DNA of 22,953 nucleotides. It comes from a virus. Where the stretch lies: the IMG/VR virus record IMGVR_UViG_3300024252_000088, positions 1 through 22,953 of that record; one strand, written 5' to 3'. The notes under the pieces were generated by a model. It searched no databases. It saw only the letters and a list, made by a program, of their open reading frames with translations, and was not told where the DNA came from. Shown here piece after piece: positions 839 to 15,340 of the stretch (position 1 is its first letter; every line of letters starts with the position of its first letter). Both the position numbers and the translations under genes were made by a program.

Positions 839-1428
839 AAACCCAAACCCTTTAAAATATACCTTTCCGGTTAAGTGTTAAATCTTAAAAACTTAAAATT
901 ATTTCTTCATCTTCCTCTGCTTAATCAAATGCTCAGCTGCAAGCATGTTAAATTCATCCAACTTCTTCTGGTCGTCCTTAGTAAACGTATCTGGAAAGAA
1001 ACATTTCTTAGCATTTAAACCTTCCAGACTAACAACTTGGCAGACAGCCTTCAGACTCCCAACAAGGCGTTTATTCTCCTTAGCTCCAGTTCCATTTGCC
1101 CTTTCACCAACTAGCTTACCATCTACAAAATCTTGAAACTTTGCCTTTGCTAGCTTAGCTTTCTCCTCGGCAACTTTCACGCTGCTCCCACAGTCTGCCA
1201 ATTTTTGCTTAATTCCGTAAACTACCAGGAATTTTTGAACTTCGTTAAAATCTGGAAACATTGGATAAAGTTTTTCAATCTCAAATTTTTCCAATTCATC
1301 TGCTGGAGTATCTGAATCAATATACTTTCCCATTGCCAAAACACTTCCTACTAAAGTCCAATCAATAAGTCTTTTTGCCATAATTTACCTTCCTTTTTGG
1401 AAAGGCATATTTTAAAAAGTTTGGGTTT
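839..1428 (-). repeat. 30-bp inverted repeat enclosing the 160-aa gene
   Basis: Bases 839-868 and 1399-1428 are inverted copies matching at 27 of 30 positions. In the leftward RNA all three DNA mismatches become G-U pairs (848-850 region and 861 against 1417-1418 and 1406), so all 30 positions can pair. In the opposite-strand RNA they would be C-A clashes. The arms lie just before the ribosome site and just after the stop codon of the enclosed gene. Strand-specific wobble pairing points to function as leftward RNA. Confidence 0.75.
899..1381 (-). CDS. Hypothetical 160-aa protein
   Basis: Starts at the ATG at 1381 with a strong AAGGAAGG ribosome site eight bases upstream on the minus strand. 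The protein is lysine-rich and mostly helical, begins with a hydrophobic stretch too short to be a clear membrane segment, and ends in a highly basic tail. No catalytic motif or known domain is recognised. It is the largest gene of the leftward cluster. Its transcript is enclosed by a 30-bp inverted repeat whose 5' arm ends directly before the ribosome site, so its translation is likely under RNA-structure control (inference). Confidence 0.75.
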   Translation of the reverse strand: MAKRLIDWTLVGSVLAMGKYIDSDTPADELEKFEIEKLYPMFPDFNEVQKFLVVYGIKQKLADCGSSVKVAEEKAKLAKAKFQDFVDGKLVGERANGTGAKENKRLVGSLKAVCQVVSLEGLNAKKCFFPDTFTKDDQKKLDEFNMLAAEHLIKQRKMKK

Positions 1429-1429
1429 T

Positions 1430-1692
1430 GTTTAATTCCTGATTGCAGGTATCAAACCTGCGTTTTATTAATATTTATTTTTAAACCTTACTCTATAAAT
1501 TTCAGTCTCATTCCATACATTATTATAGTAAAAAATTCTTAATCTTTCAGAACAAAAGTATTTAATTACCATATGTGTGAAACAGTATTTTTCAGGTAAT
1601 TCAGTAAATCTTTCAAAAACCCACTGATATTTATTCATTTCAAACCTCCTGATTAAAAGTTAATATTCGATACCTCCAATCAGGAATTAAAC
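1430..1692 (-). repeat. 24-bp inverted repeat enclosing the 56-aa gene
   Basis: Bases 1430-1453 and 1669-1692 are inverted copies identical at 23 of 24 positions. The left arm lies one base from the arm of the neighbouring 30-bp repeat, so the two repeat-enclosed units are tiled side by side. The right arm forms the leader of the 56-aa gene and the left arm follows its stop codon. No target-site duplication is visible that would suggest a transposed element. Confidence 0.75.
1468..1638 (-). CDS. Small hypothetical protein, 56 aa, aromatic-rich
   Basis: A 56-codon reading frame starts at the ATG at 1638, seven bases after an AGGAGG ribosome site, the strongest in the cluster. The product is rich in tyrosine, phenylalanine, lysine and arginine (begins MNKYQWVFERF) and has two cysteines. 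It has no recognised domain. The leader resembles that of the 70-aa gene (a TTTAAT...GGAGGTTTGAA-type stretch before ATG), which supports both as real genes. A 24-bp inverted repeat encloses it. Confidence 0.65.
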   Translation of the reverse strand: MNKYQWVFERFTELPEKYCFTHMVIKYFCSERLRIFYYNNVWNETEIYRVRFKNKY

Positions 1693-2024: not shown

Positions 2025-2069
2025 GGGATTTAAATTCTGCAGATCCGGTATGGGGGTTGGTTCATTTAC

Positions 2070-2208
2070 TGAATCTCATTCAGTGTTTGAATTGGTTTAA
2101 CTTTCTGAATCTCATTCAGTGATTAATTCTGGATCAAAGTCTGAACCGGGTTCAAACAATGACTGACGTTCATCCACTGAACCAGCTTCAGAAAATGAAT
2201 CTCATTCA
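2070..2208. repeat. 18-bp-phased array of eight palindromic sites
   Basis: Thirteen-base units of the form TGAAYC-N-GRTTCA are centred at 2076, 2094, 2112, 2130, 2148, 2166, 2184 and 2202, an exact 18-bp pitch. Units at 2076, 2112 and 2202 are identical (TGAATCTCATTCA), 2148 is the perfect palindrome TGAACCGGGTTCA, 2166 and 2184 are near matches, and 2094 and 2130 are degenerate. Five-base spacers vary. The pitch and unit size resemble lambda-type origin iterons or a partition centromere; tandem operators are another option. Confidence 0.85.
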
Positions 2209-2304
2209 GCCGGGGGTACGAGGGCCATACTTCCTTTATTTTTGTATATTCAACCCCCAGATTCCCCATAAGGTAAATTTTGTAAAAGTAATCCCTTAAT
2301 GATA

Positions 2305-2353: not shown

Positions 2354-2382
2354 TTGACATCTAATCCAAAACATGATATGGT
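2354..2382 (+). promoter_or_regulatory. Rightward sigma-70 promoter
   Basis: A perfect -35 box TTGACA (2354-2359) is followed after 17 bases by TATGGT (2377-2382) as the -10 box. The expected start is at 2388-2390, which coincides with the ATG of the first rightward gene. It probably drives at least the small genes and terminase region. Confidence 0.75.
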
Positions 2383-2387
2383 TTAAT

Positions 2388-2612
2388 ATGGATATAACTA
2401 CAATAGAAAAATCGCTTTCCACCTCACTAAGCACCACAAAGAAAGACAGAAAGCCTTGTAACCCGCTGGTTGATCATAGGCAACTTTCGGTGATTTATTA
2501 CTGTATGGCGGATAGCCAAGAAGAAACTTGTTTAAGATACTCCCCGGGACCTAATGGGGATTGTACGCATCAGGATATTTTAAACCAGCCTTTTATTTGT
2601 CGGAGCATCTAA
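2388..2612 (+). CDS. Small cysteine-containing protein, possibly leaderless
   Basis: The frame runs to a TAA at 2610-2612. An ATG at 2373 lies inside the promoter spacer, so the ATG at 2388 (74 aa), which coincides with the predicted transcription start, is preferred. The message would then be leaderless, as for lambda cI from PRM. An internal ATG at 2505 (35 aa) is the alternative. The product has five cysteines, four of them in the last third together with a CTHQD segment, so metal binding is possible. No family is recognised. Confidence 0.5.
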   Translation: MDITTIEKSLSTSLSTTKKDRKPCNPLVDHRQLSVIYYCMADSQEETCLRYSPGPNGDCTHQDILNQPFICRSI

Positions 2613-2990: not shown

Positions 2991-3479
2991 GTGGGCGGAC
3001 AGAACTCTGGAAGAGGCAAAAAAGAAGTGGATATGGAAGCGGCTCTTGATCTGCTAATGCGGGGAGAGAAAGTACCGGCCATTGCCACTGAGCTTGGTGT
3101 ATCCGCCCCGACGCTCCGTAGTCGCATAGCCGAAATACAAAAGAAACAGGGTCTTTTACTCCAGTATCGCTCGATACAATCCCTCCAACTTACCGAACTT
3201 CAAGCTAGGGTTCTCGAAGCAATTACCCCGGAAAAGATAGAAGAAGCGAACCTCCGGGATCTGGTTATGTCTTACAAGATCCTGAAAGACAAAGAACAGG
3301 TTATGGAAGGTAAACCTAATGAGATAAAGGGGCTTGTTGCTCATCTTGTGTATTTGGAAAAGCAGGAGAATGCCCTGGAAGCAGACTCAATAGACGTTAC
3401 CCCGGAACCTGGTACCGAAATACCTAAAGAGAAAACCCTTGCAGAGGAGCTAGCGATCTTAGATGACGGTAATTTCTAA
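2991..3479 (+). CDS. Probable terminase small subunit (HTH protein)
   Basis: 162 residues from a GTG at 2991, right after the previous stop. Residues about 15-50 hold a helix-turn-helix (AIATELGVSAPTLRSRI). The middle region has the helical 'TPEKIEEANLRDL...YKILKDKEQVMEG' pattern seen in many phage small terminases and related DNA-binding proteins. The acidic C-terminus could contact a partner. Small terminases recognise the packaging site and recruit the large subunit. The adjoining HNH gene supports a packaging role, but the large terminase is about 10 kb away. An HTH regulator is the alternative. Confidence 0.5.
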   Translation: MGGQNSGRGKKEVDMEAALDLLMRGEKVPAIATELGVSAPTLRSRIAEIQKKQGLLLQYRSIQSLQLTELQARVLEAITPEKIEEANLRDLVMSYKILKDKEQVMEGKPNEIKGLVAHLVYLEKQENALEADSIDVTPEPGTEIPKEKTLAEELAILDDGNF

Positions 3480-4455: not shown

Positions 4456-5367
4456 ATGACTGTTTACGGGCCGTATGAGGTAAAACATACATGGATGGGG
4501 CTTAGTACGGATACTAAACCTACAGATATTAACCCCGGAGATGAGTTTTTTGAGACGGATACGAAAGTCTGGTATCTTTATTCAGGCTCTGCCTGGGGTA
4601 TTGACGCGACTAAGGCTGTAGGAACAAATTTCACTACTTCGACAGACCCCGGCGTTTCAGCCGCAGTTACCGCAGCAACAGTTAATGCTTATGATGGAGT
4701 AGTTATTACTACCACCGCAGCAGGTAACGCTCAAACCATAGCAAATCCTACCGTAACTACTTTGCAAAAAGAATTTCTTGTAGCGAATAATGACACTTCG
4801 ACTGATTCGATTACAGTAAATTCAGTAGTACTTTCAGTAGGAGAAGCTCAAAAATTCTTCTGGGAAGGTTCTGCATGGCTAACTTTAGATGAGATGGTTG
4901 CTCACGCAGCCACACATACCAGCGGTGCAGATGATATTAGAGACGCGACTAATGCTTTAAAGGGTCTTGCTACAGCAGCTCAGATTACTACTCTTGAAGG
5001 TGCTTTACAAACCTCTGGTGGTGATTTAACTGGAGCGTTAAATGCAGCCTACGCCACAGTAGCCAGCCATGCCACAACTTCCGCAATCTGGGCAGCAGCG
5101 GGGAATATTATAAACTTCACCGGGACTGAAACTATTACAGACTTTCCTGCAGCTGATCAAGCTGGAGCCCAACGGGTTTTAATCTGTGCAGGTGCGTGTG
5201 TATTTACTCATGCTGGGAATATCACAGTCCAGGGCGGAGAAACATATACAGCAACTGCAAATGATGAAGTTACAGTAACTGCTCTTAGTACCACGACTTT
5301 TAAGCTTACTGTAAAGCCCCAAACTTGGGTGTCGCTATGGAATACAGTAATGAGTAATAAAACATAA
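4456..5367 (+). CDS. Tail fibre or adhesin protein, 303 aa
   Basis: Residues 1-50 are the YSGSAW-type module duplicated in the preceding gene. About residue 155 comes HAATHTSGADDI, the HA-x-THxxGxxD motif common in phage fibre proteins. Residues about 198-282 form a Thr/Ala-rich beta domain that recurs in the next gene (72 of 85 residues identical). The low lysine and many small residues fit a trimeric beta-structured fibre. It lies at the start of the adhesion module in the late operon, with a GAGGAG ribosome site. The receptor is unknown. Confidence 0.65.
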   Translation: MTVYGPYEVKHTWMGLSTDTKPTDINPGDEFFETDTKVWYLYSGSAWGIDATKAVGTNFTTSTDPGVSAAVTAATVNAYDGVVITTTAAGNAQTIANPTVTTLQKEFLVANNDTSTDSITVNSVVLSVGEAQKFFWEGSAWLTLDEMVAHAATHTSGADDIRDATNALKGLATAAQITTLEGALQTSGGDLTGALNAAYATVASHATTSAIWAAAGNIINFTGTETITDFPAADQAGAQRVLICAGACVFTHAGNITVQGGETYTATANDEVTVTALSTTTFKLTVKPQTWVSLWNTVMSNKT

Positions 5368-5389: not shown

Positions 5390-6676
5390 ATGGCAAAGCA
5401 AACAATCGTTCAAGGTGATACTTTCGGGGAAGCCTGGGGCAGACAAAACACAATGAATACGGAGATATACGCCGGGCCGGATTACACTGGTGCGTATAAC
5501 GATGCTTATGCAACTGTAGCCTCGCATGCTACAACTTCAGCGATTTGGGCGGCTGCTGGTAATGTTATTAATTTTACTGGTGCGGAGACAATTACTGATT
5601 TTCCAGCTGCTGATCAGGCGGGGTCTGAAAGAACTTTGATTTGCGCCGGAGCTACTGTATTTACTCATGCAGGGAATATTACTGTACAGGGTGGGGCGAC
5701 CTATACAGCAGCGGCGAATGAATCAATAAAAGTTACAGCACTTACAACAACCACATTCCTTGTTAAACCTCCTGGAATTGCCACAGTTGCACAAATGTCC
5801 AAGCTCGATGCCATTGAAGCGTCAGCAGATGTAACCGACACAACGAATGTAACCGCAGCCGGGGCTTTAATGGATTCTGAGGTTGACGCCGATTTAAAGA
5901 CCCTTAGTCTTCCTGCCTCTACTACGATTTCAGCTTTTGGAGCAAGTTTAGTTGACGATGCAGCAGCTACAAATGCACGAACTACTCTTGGACTTGCAAT
6001 AGGCACGGATGTTTTAGCAGAGCAAACTATTGGTATTGCTGATGATAATCTTTTAGAAGTAGATGGTTCACCTAATAATGGTGAGTATGGAAAGTTTACA
6101 GCAAATGGTATTGAAGGTAAGACTGTTGCTGAAATGAAAACCGATTTAGGTACTGATTATGATACTGTTTGGATAGGTGCGGGAGCAATGGTACCTTGTA
6201 CGACTAATGGTGCAGCAGCTTCAACTGAAGAGTATGGGACAAATGATATTGATCTTGATATTTTGGCCTTTGATACAGGAGCTACAGAAGAAAGAGCGCA
6301 GTTTACCTTGGTGATGCCCGAAACCTGGGATAGAAGTACAGTTAAAGTGAAGTTCTTTTGGGGTAATGCAACTGGAGCAAGCGCAGCAGATACAGTTGAA
6401 TGGGGTATAAAGGCCGGTGCCTTGAGTAATGACGATGCGATTGATGCTGCTTTGGGTGGCGCTGTAGTGATAACAGATACGGTTATTGCAGATGGTGATT
6501 TGCACGTTACAAGCGCAACTCCTGCCTTGACAGTGGGTGGAACCCCCGCGCTTGGAGATTTAATTCAGTTTGAAGTTTATAGAAACACAGATGGTACAGA
6601 TGATATGGCGGAGGACGCATGGCTGATAGGTTGCTGGATTCAATTCTTAAAAACCAATACCGTGAGTGCGTGGTAA
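5390..6676 (+). CDS. Tail fibre protein with duplicated beta domain
   Basis: 428 residues. Residues about 39-123 are the beta domain shared with the previous protein (ASHATTSAIWAAAGN onward). Residues about 125-190 hold a 'MSKLDAIEASADVTD' linker typical of fibre shafts. The C-terminal ~180 residues, from WIGAGAM through the TEE...MPETWD and DAWLIG parts, look like a compact beta-sandwich tip found at the end of many phage fibre proteins. The product probably forms a fibre shaft with a C-terminal receptor-binding or capping module. The assignment rests on motif memory. Confidence 0.6.
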   Translation: MAKQTIVQGDTFGEAWGRQNTMNTEIYAGPDYTGAYNDAYATVASHATTSAIWAAAGNVINFTGAETITDFPAADQAGSERTLICAGATVFTHAGNITVQGGATYTAAANESIKVTALTTTTFLVKPPGIATVAQMSKLDAIEASADVTDTTNVTAAGALMDSEVDADLKTLSLPASTTISAFGASLVDDAAATNARTTLGLAIGTDVLAEQTIGIADDNLLEVDGSPNNGEYGKFTANGIEGKTVAEMKTDLGTDYDTVWIGAGAMVPCTTNGAAASTEEYGTNDIDLDILAFDTGATEERAQFTLVMPETWDRSTVKVKFFWGNATGASAADTVEWGIKAGALSNDDAIDAALGGAVVITDTVIADGDLHVTSATPALTVGGTPALGDLIQFEVYRNTDGTDDMAEDAWLIGCWIQFLKTNTVSAW

Positions 6677-13864: not shown

Positions 13865-15340
13865 ATGGAATTGAATACTGAAATAAATAAAGGGGTTTTA
13901 GCGAAGCTTACTGAGTGGAAGAAAAGTGCTCTTACATTTGCAGTTGAGTGTATTAAAGTTACCCCTTCGACTCAGCAAATTGAACTTCTTCAAGCTATTT
14001 CAAACGAGAAAAGAGTTTCTGTACGAAGTGGTCATGGAGTTGGTAAAGATGCAAGTGCTTCATGGATTGTGCTGTGGTTTCTGGTTACCAGGCCTTATGC
14101 GAAAGTGGTTGTAACTGCACCGACTAACCGTCAGCTTAGAGATATATTTCTTTCTGAGATTTCTAAATGGCTTAGGCAATCGATAGTAGCTGATGAGTTT
14201 ATAGTTAGAAAAGATTCTATTCAGCATAAAGAGGCTCCAAAAGAGTGGTGGATGCGGCTGATTTCTCCTTCTATTCGAGCTACAAAAGAAGAGCAGGGTG
14301 AAACTTTAGCTGGTTTACATGGCGATCACTTATTGATAGTTTGTGATGAAGCGAGTGGTATTCCTGATCCAACTTACATACCGTTAGAGGGTGCGATTAC
14401 TCAGCCTGATAATAAAGTACTTTTAATTGGTAATATGACTAAGAACTTTGGTTACTTTTACGATACACATTTTCATGCTGAAATAAAAAAGCAGTGGAGA
14501 AAGTTTCATTGGGATTCAAGAAATTCCACAAACGTTGATCCAAGTATGCCTGAATACTTTGCTATGAAATATGGTCTTGATTCGAATGTGTTTAGGATTA
14601 GGGTTGAGGGAAATCCCCCGCTTCAGGATGAAAACACGCTTATACCACTTTGGTCTGCACAGCAGTGTATTGGGCAACAGTTTGAAGTTGCTGAAGATGA
14701 GCCCCTTTACCTTGGTGTGGATGTAGCTAGATACGGCGATGATTGTTCTATTATTTTACCGAGAAAAGGCTTACGAATTGATCCTTGGGAGACGTTTAGA
14801 AAGTTAAACACAATAGATCTTGGTGGGTTTATTAACCAGACTTATCAAGAGTTGAAAGCTGACGGGATTGGGATTGATTCTATTGGTGTTGGAGCCGGGG
14901 TTGCTGATTGGCTTGAAAAACGTAAGTTGAAGAATCTTTATCAAGTAAATGTAACTATGGCTTCAAGTAATATTGCAAAGTTTCATAAACTCCGGGATGA
15001 GCTTTGGTGTAGAGTTAGAGATAATTGTTTACTTGGGAAATACTCGTTTCCTGATGTTAAGGTTAGTGGGGAGCCGGAGAGTCTTGGACAACAGCTTGCA
15101 AGTGAACTTGCTACAGTTAGATATAGTTTTAATGCTCATGGTGGGTATGTTATAGAATCTAAAAAAGATTTAAAGACTAGGGGAATTGATAGTCCGAATA
15201 TTGCTGATGCACTTTGTATTACGGAGTATTTTTCTAATGACAGTACAAGAGTATTTGCTAAGGATAAAGAAAATTATTACTCGGAGTTTGGAAAGTATAG
15301 AGATTATCATAGTAGTGAATCTGCTTGGATGGGGAGTTAA
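13865..15340 (+). CDS. Terminase large subunit
   Basis: 491 residues, the usual length. The ATPase half has Walker A SGHGVGK (55-61), the TAPT motif at 84-87 and Walker B LLIVCDEA (156-163). The nuclease half has an RNase H-like fold with acidic residues in GVDVARYGDD (D286), GIGIDSIGVG (D338) and the C-terminal DSPNIADAL (D447). It is the motor and headful or cos nuclease for DNA packaging, docking on the portal encoded two genes later. Its small-subunit candidate lies at 2991, unusually far upstream. Confidence 0.92.
   Translation: MELNTEINKGVLAKLTEWKKSALTFAVECIKVTPSTQQIELLQAISNEKRVSVRSGHGVGKDASASWIVLWFLVTRPYAKVVVTAPTNRQLRDIFLSEISKWLRQSIVADEFIVRKDSIQHKEAPKEWWMRLISPSIRATKEEQGETLAGLHGDHLLIVCDEASGIPDPTYIPLEGAITQPDNKVLLIGNMTKNFGYFYDTHFHAEIKKQWRKFHWDSRNSTNVDPSMPEYFAMKYGLDSNVFRIRVEGNPPLQDENTLIPLWSAQQCIGQQFEVAEDEPLYLGVDVARYGDDCSIILPRKGLRIDPWETFRKLNTIDLGGFINQTYQELKADGIGIDSIGVGAGVADWLEKRKLKNLYQVNVTMASSNIAKFHKLRDELWCRVRDNCLLGKYSFPDVKVSGEPESLGQQLASELATVRYSFNAHGGYVIESKKDLKTRGIDSPNIADALCITEYFSNDSTRVFAKDKENYYSEFGKYRDYHSSESAWMGS

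Follow-up and report, generated by a model that had tools for sequence, protein, structure and literature searches.

The window, by which we mean the whole stretch of DNA analysed (22,953 bases), is a fragment of a viral contig that is classed as linear and is cut at its left end. An array of short palindromic units separates small leftward genes, on its left, from a rightward set of tail, lysis and packaging genes. The rightward set comprises a TerS-like HTH gene at its head, tail-like genes, an endolysin gene, TerL (at 13865), and portal, scaffold and capsid genes. TerL lies 11.7 kb from the array, and the adjoining gene is predicted to be TerS-like. The region to the left of the array includes a second repeat element at 1891-1946, in which GGTTGGATT occurs twice with a 20-bp spacing, and an interrupted palindrome, CTGGTT-GGATTA-AACCAG, at 1909-1926. 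Elsewhere in the window, the adjacent genes at 4456-5367 and 5390-6676 have a common repeated stretch (YATVASHATTSAIWAAAGN...NFTG), which suggests a duplicated tail-protein domain.

Table 1. Coordinates of the array and of the features around it in the window.
Feature	Position	Strand	Remarks
Leftward gene	899..1381	-	55% identity to the first gene across the array in L035
Small leftward ORF	1468..1638	-	56 aa; closest to the array on the left
Possible ninth unit	2052..2064	.	In register; right half GGTTCA alone conserved
Eight-unit array, TGAA-Y-N3-R-TTCA	2070..2208	.	18-bp pitch
Strong array units (starts)	2070, 2106, 2142, 2178, 2196		
Weak (degenerate) array units (starts)	2088, 2124, 2160		
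17-bp block GGGGGTACGAGGGCCAT	2212..2228	+	Directly adjoins the array; the copy in the syntenic relative L035 has one mismatch
Sigma-70-like promoter, TTGACA-17-TATGGT	2354..2382	+	TG preceding the -10; sequence and place conserved in L035
First rightward gene, small protein	2391..2612	+	Conserved with L035:4538-4792
HTH protein, possible small terminase	2991..3479	+	Weak HTH_23 and DNA-invertase-HTH matches only

The array consists of eight 13-bp palindromic units at a pitch of exactly 18 bp, with 5-bp spacers, just as the original prediction had placed them. The expected excess of self-identity at lag 18 is clear: the value for the array is 0.545, whereas 2000 shuffles that preserve dinucleotides give 0.262 ± 0.041, and in none of them is the value of the array attained, either at lag 18 or across lags 5-59. 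The identity at lag 36 is higher still (0.64), and strong and weak units alternate along the array. In addition, a single 18-bp phase holds all six TGAA and all seven TTCA half-sites of 2052-2208, with TTCA offset by 9. The maximum number of same-phase half-sites per 157-nt stretch is 13 in the window, as compared to at most four in 300 simulated windows. Details of the prediction had to be revised. The consensus TGAAYC-N-GRTTCA becomes TGAA-Y-N3-R-TTCA, because the three identical units (TGAATCTCATTCA) carry C, not G, at position 8, and the number of degenerate units is three instead of two. We also considered a coding repeat, with reference to the overlapping ORF 1937-2122, which begins well before the array and stops inside it. 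We rejected this reading because the ORF looks mechanical and because a relative retains the sites at altered spacings.

Do related phages keep the array? The expectation that it would be found in close relatives with the same flanking genes holds for one locus, L035 on the 48-kb contig G001, in which both flanks are syntenic with the window. The flanking genes are 55-71% identical, with 55% for the leftward protein at 899-1381 and 71% for the TerS-like protein. In the equivalent gap between divergent genes, L035 has a looser array, about 300 bp long, and the GGGGGTACGAGGGCCAT block and the promoter are kept in both sequence and order. This promoter reads rightward and lies about 146 bp past the array in the window. 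With up to two mismatches allowed, the block had no match in the rest of the loci collected at that stage. In contrast, four loci (L004, L006, L007 and L010) encode TerS-like proteins that are 66-70% identical to that of the window, yet lack the array. These loci share the TerS-like gene only, and they yielded no relative of the window's left-hand flanking gene. L032 has an array of 8-bp period (ATAGTTGG-like; 751-866) and, about 1.4 kb downstream of it, a gene related to the window's TerS-like gene.

The motif and the pitch recur in other phages. When 2.9 million viral contigs were scanned for three tandem units with an 18-bp pitch, 15 stretches matched. The number of independent true arrays is smaller, because inspection showed at least four of these stretches to be simple or coding repeats, and because two pairs consist of near-copies. 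The pattern matches L072, L094, L135, L153, L159, L161 and L164 were set aside because they are simple or coding repeats; two more, L108 and L080, are doubtful. In the control scan of 2.9 million viral contigs, the scrambled half-site AAGT/ACTT had no match, and the control with a 19-bp pitch had one (L203), which again has TerS-like and TerL-like genes downstream. The scan of 257 Gb of cellular genomes gave four matching stretches, of which only one is a true array, on a contig that is also recorded as viral. Counted by TerL similarity, the uncultured phages with this motif and pitch represent about six terminase lineages, and each genome has one array cluster. A BLAST comparison of the arrays with named phages gave no meaningful match. 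In a grid scan, the arrays have up to 25 units, and in the larger phages the sites are spread over 1.3-3.6 kb. About 1.8 kb from the longest array, that of up to 25 units, L143:1310-2206 encodes a protein with a ParB-like N-terminal domain, as judged by reading only.

The spacing is consistent among the arrays. Over 26 pooled loci, 18 bp (107 cases), 36 bp (20) and 37 bp (11) dominate, a count that is partly circular because several of these loci were originally found via the 18-bp pattern itself. The phase is maintained across missing units in the same pool. Loci fetched by protein have the same spacings, namely 18 in L171, L175 and L190, 36 in L170, and 37 in L176.

Next, we consider the position of the array relative to the packaging genes. 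The array is usually 0.2-6 kb upstream of terminase genes. TerL, as detected by phrog_2, is near the array in most array contigs and is 1.9-6.2 kb off in the larger phages; phrog_2 did not detect it in G020 and G022. Combined over contigs, the proximity of TerL to the array has p = 1.6e-4. We take this proximity as suggestive of a real association, because the members of clade A (described below) are not independent in the test, because p = 0.02 without them, and because G027 is a clear exception with TerL about 40 kb from the array. The motif accompanies at least three TerS-like types that were unlinked by the searches run.

In clade A, the gene order is a TerS-like gene, the array, a divergent gene for a coiled-coil/winged-helix protein, and then a primase-like gene, the last of which is so called because annotated phage primases match it weakly in tblastn. 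A primase also adjoins the array in L102/L160, with a clear PHROGs match in L102. We fetched loci by the winged-helix protein alone and removed the five already known. In the resulting 134.5 kb, TGAA-N5-TTCA occurs 59 times, mainly in the gap from the TerS-like to the winged-helix gene. In the same 134.5 kb, ten of the eleven permuted half-sites occur 0-8 times, and the remaining one, AATG, 18 times; TGAA at other spacer lengths occurs 3-8 times. The motif is statistically linked to the winged-helix gene in clade A. Moreover, promoter-like sites, which are consensus matches only, oppose each other on the two sides of the clade A array, mostly without overlapping it. Three clade A members (L173, L174 and L183) have a different repeat unit at the array's place. 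The region L183:3117-3574, between the TerS-like and winged-helix genes, holds about 27 copies of a 17-bp repeat, and L173:3480-3760 and L174:3540-3850 hold TACNACANTGTNGTA-containing repeats.

The clade A winged-helix protein is short and has an N-terminal coiled coil, and its model is confident (mean pLDDT 89). Its closest relatives in both sequence and fold are the dimeric ArsR/SmtB and MarR repressors (HlyU, CzrA). These repressors bind inverted repeats as dimers; the clade A proteins differ from them in being short, in having the coiled coil, and in being paired with tandem arrays. This small protein encoded beside the array is the likely binder in clade A. The family was not found in the named-phage collection that we searched, and a profile search did not detect it in most other array phages. 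The exceptions outside clade A are G031 (hhalign E 3e-5) and G001, which has a generic winged-helix protein (E 1e-4). The profile search thus does not support this family as the common binder of all array phages, and the comparison of neighbouring genes in G019, G021 and G029 with the family gave no support either. In the window, the protein of 899-1381 has no similarity to the clade A family, and its fold model is unusable (pLDDT 43).

How might the array work? We put at roughly even the chance that it serves for the cooperative, helically phased assembly of a dimeric DNA-binding protein encoded by the phage, within a region of early/late control. Because TGAA and TTCA half-sites alternate every 9 bp, dimers could lie side by side, one per 18 bp, and would then form a continuous filament along the array, with cooperativity filling the weak units. 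The filament would hold one or both of the divergent promoters off. With enough protein, or upon a change of state, transcription would switch from early to late. The leftward genes would be the early ones and the rightward packaging and structural genes the late ones, and the binder in the window would presumably be encoded by the phage as well. Several observations count against this reading. Unlike a classical operator, the array lies clear of the core promoters. Its conserved place by the terminase genes would also be expected of a packaging site. In addition, the winged-helix family was not detected in most other array phages, and the repeat is swapped in the three clade A members described above.

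Three functions had originally been put forward for the units: replication iterons, a partition centromere, and a cooperative operator array controlling both directions. The last is the best supported, since divergent genes flank the array in the window and in its relative, as do opposed promoter-like sites in clade A. At a replication origin, the units would serve as iterons for an initiator, either lambda-O-like or a winged-helix protein, and replication would begin alongside. We consider this unlikely. In its favour, two lineages have such genes close by: a primase-like gene beyond the winged-helix gene in clade A, and a primase by the array in L102/L160. The lambda O iterons are likewise tandem inverted repeats, of about 19 bp (PMC7466680), and the array presents tandem sites with a dyad symmetry of ~18-19 bp, in a single cluster per genome. 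The cumulative GC skew of the window has its minimum at 1890, beside the array; however, divergent gene orientation alone would yield such a minimum, and that of G001 is not at the array. The stretch 2221-2353, which the prediction had called AT-rich, has 64% A+T as compared to 61% window-wide (69th percentile among 133-nt windows), and it is therefore not notably AT-rich. Lambda, in contrast, has four iterons within the O gene, by an AT-rich stretch. The arrays described here have 8-25 units, as compared to 4-6 iterons in lambdoid origins, they are mainly in divergent intergenic regions by terminase genes, and the 1.3-3.6 kb spread of sites in the larger phages also argues against an origin. 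No initiator gene was found in the window, with its cut left end. It is also rather improbable that the array is a packaging (pac) site, which the small terminase would bind to start DNA packaging. In keeping with such a site, about six terminase lineages have the array upstream of TerL or a TerS-like gene, and the pac site of SPP1 covers the promoters and the start of the small-terminase gene and includes repeats (PMC4737164); the pac region of SF6 is alike in that repeats adjoin the small-terminase gene and its promoter. The SPP1 repeats, however, are a few direct repeats with little binding role, whereas the palindromes of the array are many and strictly phased, and in the window they stop 146 bp short of the promoter. 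Furthermore, the motif does not track with the type of TerS-like gene: at least three types, unlinked by the searches run, carry it, TerS-like relatives of 66-70% identity lack it, and TerS-like genes of the L158 type can occur with a different array. The proximity outside clade A reaches only p of about 0.02. In published work, pac-type TerS proteins show weak DNA binding with no clear preference for a sequence (PMC9611059, PMC4737164), and a dimer suits alternating inverted half-sites better than would a ring whose subunits all face alike.

Two explanations remain. Operators of a transcription factor common to the phage hosts, for instance MetR or another regulator of the LysR type, would explain the same motif in unrelated phages without a common binder, and the 13-bp sequence TGAANNNNNTTCA, the published E. 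coli MetR-like consensus (PMC3353975), is identical to the array motif. We regard this explanation as very unlikely. MetR binds a single host operator, as compared to 8-25 phased phage sites here, and no LysR-type or MetR gene was recognised in the window. To our knowledge, arrays of 8-25 phased units are atypical of LysR-type regulators. True three-unit arrays are nearly absent from the 257 Gb of cellular genomes, and clade members can swap the motif and yet retain an array. A partition centromere of a plasmid-like prophage is slightly less likely still. Tandem phased sites do look like plasmid centromeres, and winged-helix centromere-binding proteins exist; nevertheless, the arrays adjoin terminase genes, and the one true array in sequenced cellular genomes is on a contig that is also viral. 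Reading and family scans of some of the neighbouring genes revealed no partition NTPase near the arrays, and this part of the original prediction found no support.

None of the known systems compared (MetR, lambda and SPP1) combines the position, number and phasing of the array, and our searches of an open-access library, in which most subscription journals are not included, gave no description of such an array. The same array adjoins packaging genes in several unrelated phages, and it therefore probably marks a control switch shared by several unrelated uncultured phages. More tentatively, and with more doubt than confidence, this may be a widespread early/late switch, in which a lattice of half-sites phased at 18 bp nucleates a filament of a dimeric winged-helix protein beside packaging genes with unrelated terminases. 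If so, phages with unrelated packaging genes would have one control element in common, which could be found by a short pattern search. The clade A protein would be a ready candidate, and the early/late switch of several uncultured phage groups would become directly testable. In metagenomic phage contigs, the array would then show where early genes give way to late ones.
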